Assembly: GCA_025356035.1 (NCBI GenBank)
Contig: JANXYN010000098.1
Coordinates: forward strand, 1-53,091
DNA: 53,091 nucleotides
DNA from: Geobacteraceae bacterium
Lineage (GTDB): Bacteria > Desulfobacterota > Desulfuromonadia > Geobacterales > Geobacteraceae
Direction of reading: 5' to 3'
Of this stretch, positions 31,380 through 39,451 are shown piece by piece. The position numbers and the translations under genes are program-made. Numbering within the stretch: the stretch's first letter is position 1; each line of letters opens with the position of its first letter. The notes below the pieces were generated by a model, which worked only from the letters and a program-made list of their open reading frames with translations, did not search any database and was not told where the DNA came from.

Positions 31380-32399
31380 TTACAGGGTCCGTTCGGCCGC
31401 CTCGGCAAAGAGCTGCAACCTGGCCATCAACAGGTTGAATTTGGCCGGCTTGAGCGACTGGGGGCCGTCGGAAGAGGCATGCTCCGGGTCGGGGTGTACC
31501 TCGATGATCAGGCCATCGGCGCCGGCAGCCACAGCGGCATAGGCCATCGGCGCCACGTAATGGTAATGGCCGGTGCCGTGGGAAGGGTCGGCGATTACCG
31601 GCAGATGGGTTTTCTCCTTCAGCACCGGGATCGCCGAAAGATCGAGGGTATTGCGGGTAGCGGTCTCAAAGGTGCGGATTCCCCGCTCGCAGAGGATCAC
31701 CGCCTGGTTCCCCTCACTCATGATATATTCGGCGCTCATCAGGAACTCCTGGATGGTCATCGACATTCCCCGTTTCAGCAACACCGGGCGTTTCAGTTGG
31801 CCGACCTTTTTCAGCAGGGCAAAATTCTGGGAGTTGCGCGCTCCGATCTGCAGAATATCCGCATACTCGGCCACCAGCTCGGCAGTCTCCGGATTGACCA
31901 CCTCGGTGACAAAGGGGAGGCCGGTAAGCTGCCGGGCCTTGGCCAGGAGCTTCAGTCCCTCCTCTTCCAACCCCTGGAAGGAGTAGGGGGAGGTCCGCGG
32001 CTTGAACGCACCGCCTCTCAACATCTGGGCCCCGGCGGCCTTGACCGCCTCCGCCGACTCGATGATCTGCTTCTCGCTCTCCACCGAACAGGGGCCTGCC
32101 ATGACGATAAGCTCCCGACCGCCAATGCTTACCGCTTCACTGATTTTAATGACGCTTGGCTCCCGTTTCACCTCTTTGGAGGCAAGCTTGTACGGCTGCA
32201 GGATCGGAACCACGCTCTCCACACCATGCATCGACTCAATCGACTGAAGCACCAGCTTGCCACGATCATCCCCCACCGCGCCAATCACGTCGCGAGTGGC
32301 GCCGTGAATCACGTGCGGCTGGTAGCCGCACTCCCTGATCCGCTTCAACACCTCATCCCGGTCCTGTTTAGCTGCGCCTGCTTTCATGACAATGATCAT
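31380..32399 (-). CDS. aroF: DAHP synthase (3-deoxy-7-phosphoheptulonate synthase)
   Basis: 339 residues, type I-beta DAHP synthase: an N-terminal ACT-like/ferredoxin-like regulatory domain (~1-70, [16 protein letters not shown]) and the (beta/alpha)8 barrel with [40 protein letters not shown] and ADPSHGTG. It joins phosphoenolpyruvate and erythrose 4-phosphate, the entry to the shikimate pathway. The SD AAGGAG precedes the ATG. The gene has an attenuator-like leader (32442-32695). aroF is used for the type I-beta class; other symbols are possible. Confidence 0.93.
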
Positions 32400-32441
32400 C
32401 CTTTCGCTCCTTTTGTGGCGTTGATAAGTGGCCGAAAACGC

Positions 32442-32470
32442 AAAAGGCCGGAGGAATCCCCCCCGGCCTT
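32442..32470 (-). terminator. Second leader terminator of aroF (attenuator)
   Basis: Minus strand AAGGCCGGGGG/CCTCCGGCCTT stem with a short loop, ending in CCTTTTG; 43 bases before the aroF start codon. Confidence 0.65.
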
Positions 32471-32496
32471 GGTCTCTGCTATTGGTCTTAACAACT

Positions 32497-32535
32497 AAAA
32501 AAGCCGGGGGTCAGTTCCTGTCCACCCTCGGCTTT
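32497..32535 (-). terminator. First leader terminator of aroF (attenuator)
   Basis: Minus strand stem AAAGCCGAGGGT (32524-32535) with ACCCCCGGCTTT (32500-32511), one mismatch, followed by a run of Ts. A second segment CGGCTTT inside the leader peptide codons (Tyr16-Phe18) can pair with the same 5' arm AAAGCCG and might act as an antiterminator. Confidence 0.75.
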
Positions 32536-32566
32536 CGGTCTCGTTTACGGTTTGTTCCAGCTCCCC

Positions 32567-32659
32567 CTAAATCGCACCTCTACCCTGGGCAGACGGCCTA
32601 AAATCAAAGCCGTACCAAAAGCAAAAGTTCGCAAAGGTGACGAAGCTGGTGGAAATCAT
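32567..32659 (-). CDS. Aromatic-rich leader peptide of aroF
   Basis: A 30-residue open frame, ATG to TAG, in the aroF leader. Eight of the fifteen residues 6-20 are aromatic (FVTFANFCFWYGFDF): six Phe, one Trp, one Tyr. Such codon runs are the signature of ribosome-mediated attenuation of aromatic amino acid biosynthesis. The stop is 32 bases before the first terminator hairpin. No SD precedes the ATG; the promoter would place the start of transcription at the ATG. Longer frames upstream of it exist but start before the promoter. The peptide itself is unlikely to have another role. Confidence 0.75.
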   Translation of the reverse strand: MISTSFVTFANFCFWYGFDFRPSAQGRGAI

Positions 32660-32665
32660 AGCGGT

Positions 32666-32695
32666 ATAATTACTGAACCAGCCGTTACCTGTCAA
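32666..32695 (-). promoter_or_regulatory. Promoter of the aroF leader
   Basis: Minus strand TTGACA (32690-32695), 18-bp spacer, AATTAT (32666-32671). Transcription would begin at about 32659, the A of the leader peptide ATG. Confidence 0.55.
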
Positions 32696-39305: not shown

Positions 39306-39334
39306 TTGCGGCAAACGGGCATCAGCGCTATAAT
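39306..39334 (+). promoter_or_regulatory. Promoter of the candidate small RNA
   Basis: TTGCGG (39306-39311), 17-bp spacer, perfect TATAAT (39329-39334). Confidence 0.6.
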
Positions 39335-39340
39335 GGTTTC

Positions 39341-39420
39341 AGAGATATAGAGTTGCGAGGGTCGAAAGACCCTCATCTGCCCTAGCTGACTTGCCCTCCT
39401 AGTCACTAGGGTGTTTTTTT
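39341..39420 (+). ncRNA. Candidate small RNA with CCUCCU loop
   Basis: About 80 bases between a sigma70 promoter and a rho-independent terminator, without an open frame. Two hairpins: GAGGGTC-GAAA-GACCCTC (39357-39374, perfect stem with a GNRA tetraloop), and CCCTAG(C)TGACT/AGTCACTAGGG (39380-39411) with a 9-base loop TGCCCTCCT, followed by TG and seven Ts. The exposed CCUCCU complements SD sequences (AGGAGG), like C-rich-loop regulatory RNAs. It could instead be a leader of the downstream regulator, but the terminator sits 128 bases before its ATG and the regulator has its own promoter. Confidence 0.6.
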
Positions 39421-39433
39421 GCCCACACTAGAA

Positions 39434-39451
39434 TGTGCCACTTCCTGCACA
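39434..39451. promoter_or_regulatory. Palindromic operator 1
   Basis: TGTGCC-N6-TGCACA, upstream of the regulator promoter. Same motif at 39464 and 41857. Its centre is 30 bp (about three turns) from operator 2. Confidence 0.7.

Follow-up and report, generated by a model that had tools for sequence, protein, structure and literature searches.

The DAHP synthase gene aroF in a 53,091-nucleotide stretch of Geobacteraceae DNA (the window) is preceded by a short aromatic-rich open reading frame and two hairpins, which raises the question of whether a ribosome translating this leader governs transcription into the gene, and through which RNA strands. The original prediction proposed ribosome-mediated attenuation by aromatic amino acids, and the comparative evidence strongly supports it: comparison of related loci backs the leader, an antiterminator helix (A:B), two hairpins (B:C and D:E) and the placement of the aromatic codons. 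The locus has a leader ORF in which codons for the amino acids under regulation cluster, and an intrinsic terminator before the structural gene, and covariation together with a masking calculation, both computational, point to an alternative helix that depends on ribosome position. The features, all on the minus strand, are as follows.

32690..32695 (-): −35 box TTGACA, starting 36 nt upstream of the leader ATG
32666..32671 (-): −10-like AATTAT; promoter match 10/12 with an 18-nt spacer, the −10 box being weak
32659-32567 (-): leader peptide ORF MISTSFVTFANFCFWYGFDFRPSAQGRGAI, 30 amino acids in 30 codons, stop TAG, without a Shine-Dalgarno (SD) sequence; relatives have homologous leaders
32600..32644 (-): control codons 6-20 (F6 F9 F12 F14 W15 Y16 F18 F20)
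32587..32594 (-): segment A GUCUGCCC, antiterminator 5' strand, codons 22-25, beyond the aromatic codons in the 3'-terminal part of the leader ORF
32579..32611 (-): local hairpins GGCUUUGAUUUUAGGCC and UCUGCCCAGGGUAGA, which can hide A without a covering ribosome; a possible protector
32520..32539 (-): segment B ACCGAAAGCCGAGGGUGGAC, forming the 5' arm of terminator 1 and its loop; GGGUGGAC (32520-32527) is the partner of A
32497..32535 (-): terminator 1 (T1, B:C), hairpin of about -18 kcal/mol with a U6 tract
32497..32511 (-): segment C ACCCCCGGCUUUUUU, which supplies terminator 1 with its 3' arm and U tract
32458..32470 (-): segment D AAGGCCGGGGGGG, complementary to C; it makes up the 5' arm of terminator 2
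32444..32470 (-): terminator 2 (T2, D:E), about -23 kcal/mol, with a broken tail UUUUGCGUUUU down to 32435
32407..32413 (-): aroF ribosome-binding site AAAGGAG
31380..32399 (-): aroF, DAHP synthase (type I-beta; NCBIfam PRK08673/TIGR01361)

As a full scheme, the element is very probably a ribosome-mediated transcription attenuator that senses charged tRNA of the three aromatic amino acids (Phe, Tyr and Trp) ahead of aroF. Leader transcription would begin at or near the AUG, and translation would proceed without a Shine-Dalgarno sequence. When charged aromatic tRNA is scarce, the ribosome would slow at codons about 9-18 and leave A open, and A would pair with the emerging B before C exists. With B occupied, terminator 1 could not form; the free C would then pair with D and block terminator 2 as well, and RNA polymerase would read into aroF. 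When the aromatic tRNAs are charged, the ribosome would run over A, B:C and D:E would form, and transcription would end. The order of events, the C:D relay, the leaderless start and the response to starvation are the parts of this scheme that we infer.

The leader peptide and its start

The predicted 30-residue peptide, with six Phe, one Trp and one Tyr in residues 6-20, is present at 32659-32567 on the minus strand, so that 8 of these 15 residues are aromatic. It is the sole ATG ORF of 15-45 amino acids with at least eight aromatics in 15 in the whole window, and none of the 200 first-order Markov copies generated from it contained an ORF as aromatic. Upstream of the leader, a second small ORF, MESTANLRFGLELAGVFLLTVIFAFWVFCKFLGKNSKD (32958-32842, minus strand), has six aromatics in 15; it may have arisen by chance or encode a small membrane peptide.

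Among 80 loci found via DAHP synthase similarity, an aromatic leader was present at every Geobacteraceae or Desulfuromonadales aroF locus (L004-L034), as well as in two MAGs labelled Nitrospirota, and the usual ending was [FS]FWxGFxFRPSA. The aromatic codon run was thus retained in all close aroF homologues, as the original prediction required. The two Nitrospirota-labelled loci (L023 and L027, in genomes G395 and G396) carry both aroF and the element, with 77-79% protein identity to the window, and may reflect horizontal transfer or mis-binning. Aromatic leaders with VCP or VRP were found at more distant loci (L036, L043, L046, L048, L054, L056, L057, L064, L082, and L062), which belong to Methylomirabilota/Rokubacteria and two other deltaproteobacterial MAGs.

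The leader of the window is probably leaderless, because TTGACA, a feature absent from the original prediction, lies 36 nt before its AUG and there is no Shine-Dalgarno sequence (anti-SD energy -2.2 kcal/mol); judging from the promoter position, transcription probably starts on the AUG itself or only a few nt from it. Across the family, 48 members, including the window, Geobacteraceae and Rokubacteria, have TTGAC 34-43 nt before the leader ATG and a mean anti-SD energy of -0.9 kcal/mol, and their leader peptides are probably leaderless too. Another 40 members, with TTGAC at 45-60 nt and a mean anti-SD energy of -5.9 kcal/mol, have ordinary SD-led leaders.

The antiterminator helix and ribosome position

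In an alignment of 36 loci from leader to T1, RNAalifold returned A:B, unprompted, as the only consensus helix, and the partners of GUCUGCCC in B were GGGUGGAC, GGGCAGAC or GGGCGGAC. Pairing was intact in 99.6% of cells, with both-side changes at three pairs, compared with 35-50% when the partner was slid by one to three columns. Similarly, in 102 aligned matches from 100 loci, an alignment that was fitted to the covariance model and contains a couple of spurious or duplicate rows, 98.8% of cells were paired (slid control, 29-50%), with both-side changes in six of the eight pairs (60 cells). Fitting alone does not yield such compensatory changes. The variants include GUCUGCC:GGCAGAC, GUCCGCC:GGCGGAC, GUCUACC:GGUAGAC, GCCUGCC:GGCAGGC, and CUUGCACC:GGUGCA. 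In the Pelobacter-like loci L028 and L029, the A segment has diverged (CGACCCG with CGGGUUGAUG), and there is no clear T2. The two local hairpins over segment A were not conserved in Rokubacteria.

All three reading frames are used for GUCUGCCC across the leaders (65, 62, and 15 cases), giving RSA, VCP or GLP, which indicates that selection acts on the RNA and that the nucleotides rather than the peptide are conserved. This bears on the possibility that the short ORF codes for a functional small hydrophobic protein and that the hairpins are simply its ordinary terminator. The ORF is indeed aromatic-rich, hydrophobic and conserved in length, and the trpL peptide of Sinorhizobium meliloti has a second role (PMC7298713); however, the C-terminal residues vary with the frame while the nucleotides stay constant, and genes of aromatic metabolism follow the element, and we regard this possibility as very improbable. 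A metabolite riboswitch or protein-binding leader, in which the aromatic ORF would be incidental or secondary, is likewise hard to credit. A conserved long-range helix with terminators is found in many riboswitches, but no aptamer-like core is conserved here, A:B being the sole consensus helix between leader and T1, there is no Rfam match, and in three frames the aromatic codons keep their place relative to A, counted in codons.

The original prediction placed the antiterminator elsewhere, with CGGCTTT (codons 16-18) pairing with AAAGCCG in the 5' arm of terminator 1. Both strings occur in the window and in about half of its close relatives. However, this pairing is not conserved: in the 36 homologues, 68% of cells were paired compared with 69% in shuffles, no covariation was seen, and the L012-L022 clade keeps CGGCTTT although its terminator arm is AACCGGGG. 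An attenuator operating through these strands can therefore be given almost no weight, and the strand that we favour as the partner of B is A.

The position of the aromatic codons relative to A was counted in 137 leaders. From codon -11 to codon -3 before A, 58-89% of residues were aromatic, whereas at position -2 there were none (0/137) and afterwards at most 8%; because the survey model was trained on aroF leaders, these codon counts, like the pairing counts, are biased upwards, and a few loci are duplicated. The sharp edge before A persists despite the differing frames. The family control region contains 39% Phe, 22% Tyr and 7% Trp, and this mixture suggests that the switch senses all three amino acids. 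Sensing of aromatic amino acids thus stands as proposed, while the narrower idea that Phe is the main signal does not.

To describe ribosome position, the RNA was taken to be covered to 12 nt past the start of the A-site codon, with the transcript ending after B. Before C emerges, the calculated probability of A:B in the window leader is 0.88-1.00 with the ribosome at codons 9-18; it falls to 0.75 at codon 19 and 0.37 at codon 20, and is 0 for codon 21 and all later ones. For stalls at codons 5-7, the local hairpins hide A and the probability is 0.04-0.10. In this model, of the early Phe codons at which stalling had been proposed, codon 9 would fall within the effective stretch and codon 6 would not. 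Once T1 is fully transcribed, equilibrium folding of the window leader favours B:C at any ribosome position (P about 0.8), and therefore A:B must win kinetically, by forming first. The folding check suggested with the original prediction thus gives a switch before C is transcribed but not in the complete window leader at equilibrium. In L036, L030, L056, and L057, by contrast, the switch is seen at equilibrium too, over stall stretches that match their own aromatic codons.

Two terminators and a proposed C:D relay

The terminator with a T-run predicted after the leader stop was recovered as a hairpin with a U6 tract at 32535-32497. The second predicted terminator also corresponds to a hairpin (32470-32444, with a broken U tail); it is probably not a mere terminator but a second switch linked to T1 via C:D pairing, although this assignment is less certain. 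The relay idea arose from the output of an automatic hairpin finder, which at first gave C:D in place of the B:C hairpins. The C:D duplex of the window has 11 pairs (-23.5 kcal/mol), and when A:B is forced, the best fold contains C:D and both terminators are lost. A second hairpin soon after T1 is present in most members of the family, and it frequently has a U run as well. In Rokubacteria, the only U run is the one at T2 (hairpins shown for L057), and thus T1 there can act only by competing.

The core hexamers of the two strands, CCAYGG in C and CCRUGG in D, occur in combinations of 17, 10, 0, and 13 (Fisher p=1e-4), or 9, 5, 0, and 9 when counted by family by hand (p=0.003), although phylogeny is not fully accounted for in either P value. 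The one combination incompatible with C:D pairing (C=CCACGG with D=CCATGG) was seen in 0 of 13. A swapped-partner duplex test was clear in Rokubacteria and weaker elsewhere, because the cores are shared.

An alternative is that A:B acts on terminator 1 only, as the sole regulated terminator, and that hairpin 2 is redundant, weak or mRNA-stabilising, with no C:D relay. Several members do carry terminator 1 alone (no second terminator was found in L104, L108, L121, L153, and L160), the U tract of hairpin 2 in the window is broken, and in L036 T2 is stronger than C:D by about 2 kcal/mol and outcompetes it. C:D mismatches also occur in L117, L124, and L156. However, if the second terminator acted constitutively the gene would be silent, and still a good U run follows T2 in most members and stands at T2 alone in Rokubacteria; in addition, the mismatched core combination is absent, and with A:B forced, C pairs downstream with D in 118 of 142 members. 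Taken together, regulation at terminator 1 alone seems unlikely, although it deserves serious consideration, and the linked pair of terminators is the reading that we carry forward. A small hairpin lies between C and D in L012 (2920-2945, GGUCUG..CAGACC) and at the same place in L004, L013, L014, L019, and L021; it varies in sequence and would draw C and D together in the antiterminated state.

Family distribution, downstream genes and known systems

A covariance model (R1) that contains the A:B helix only found one element in the window's own genome and none at the second DAHP synthase of that genome. Of 395 genomes sampled across the phylum, R1 matched 170 (~43%), which represent 113 of 246 genera, often with two or three elements per genome. 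Among 47 individual genomes from more distant DAHP synthase loci, 14 were positive: 13 belong to lineages that had given matches before, and the last has a doubtful 66-nt match (G432). The other 33 were negative, which indicates that R1 is not promiscuous. In Rfam searches of the window and 20 family loci, no family was assigned to the element at gathering scores, and E-value mode gave sub-threshold matches only. Elsewhere in the window, an atoC RNA (RF01733, 84.7 bits) lies at 39327-39418 on the plus strand, ahead of a gene at 39435. No earlier description of the element was found in the literature for Geobacter or Deltaproteobacteria; Narunsky 2024 (PMC11109978) screened a Geobacter genome, and the main text of that paper does not mention the element.

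The genes downstream of 142 elements, a census that includes a few duplicates, comprised 93 DAHP synthases of the same type, 3 of another type, 14 ADH synthases (TIGR01949), 1 shikimate kinase, 10 PaaK-like CoA ligases, 10 LivK-like binding proteins, 9 PRK06836 aminotransferases, and 2 unclear genes, so that known aromatic-pathway or PaaK-like genes follow 121 of the 142. The PRK06836 aminotransferases, whose substrate is uncharacterised (L162, L165, L168, L171, L177, L178, L185, L189, and L119), are predicted to be aromatic aminotransferases, because an aromatic element precedes them. Two weak model matches lie before leuA (L187 and L198). They lack a convincing aromatic leader, were excluded from the family, and possibly represent a different attenuator with similar terminators.

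In L226, L223, L225, L218, and L219, the element heads operons for a LivKHMGF-type ABC transporter, PaaK-like CoA ligases and an ACT-domain-like small protein. The order in L226 (G211:C3) is LivK-H-M-G-F, PaaK, IorA, and IorB, the last two coding for an indolepyruvate ferredoxin oxidoreductase (IOR; alpha subunit TIGR03336, 737 bits). Operons of this type are candidates for the salvage of aryl acids into aromatic amino acids. Together with known IOR chemistry, the arrangement suggests that aromatic starvation would turn on the import of aryl acids, from which aromatic amino acids would then be made.

Comparison very well supports the view that the element represents a family of attenuators. 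We lean slightly towards a broader reading, in which it would be an undescribed RNA family forming an aromatic regulon across the phylum and Rokubacteria. A five-strand relay (A:B and C:D versus B:C and D:E) would disarm two terminators per stall, leaderless and SD-led versions would exist, and the ABC transporter-PaaK-indolepyruvate oxidoreductase operons would be governed for synthesis from aryl acids rather than degradation. Ribosome-mediated attenuators have mostly been described operon by operon in a few bacterial groups, and amino acid regulation in this phylum of anaerobes is little studied; in the present case a single RNA design, which a covariance model can recognise, would join most entry points to the aromatic amino acids. 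The element may therefore serve as a regulon predictor, indicating which transporters, CoA ligases and oxidoreductases serve aromatic amino acid supply, and, if the broader reading is true, the ABC-PaaK-IOR operons belong to synthesis from aryl acids. It would also let leaderless and SD-led leader peptides be compared as they occur naturally within one switch, and it provides a testable two-terminator relay.

Attenuation itself is a known kind of regulation, and what is new is the element's own variant, for which searches of Rfam and of the literature gave no match. Similar to the pheA and trp attenuators of enteric bacteria (Rfam Phe_leader and Trp_leader), it uses aromatic codons of a leader peptide to control a terminator. 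However, it has no Rfam match, uses different strands and an extra hairpin, and controls the first step of the shikimate pathway together with transport and CoA-ligase operons. The uORFC-13-1 motif (Brewer 2021, PMC8632094) also combines a uORF containing one or more Phe codons with a terminator that follows it, ahead of aroF (DAHP synthase). It is reported from Acholeplasma and environmental DNA only (24 sequences), precedes aroF only and has an RBS; the two differ in taxon and in the presence of an RBS. The trpL attenuator of S. meliloti, an alphaproteobacterium, has a leader transcript with the ATG of the leader ORF at its very 5' end and thus a leaderless leader peptide (PMC7298713). A leaderless start is predicted for the window's element as well; trpL differs in its Trp-specific 14-codon leader and serves trpE(G) only. 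Like the his operon attenuator of Salmonella and E. coli, the element is ribosome-mediated, with control codons in a leader ORF and, as in his-type attenuators, an extra hairpin between the leader ORF and the final terminator whose 3' arm can pair with the 5' arm of that terminator, although some members have T1 only. The element differs from the his attenuator in its amino acids and sequences, in having segment A within the leader ORF, past the control codons, in the absence of an SD in the window's clade, and in a terminator 1 that usually has a U run, which places two terminators in series.
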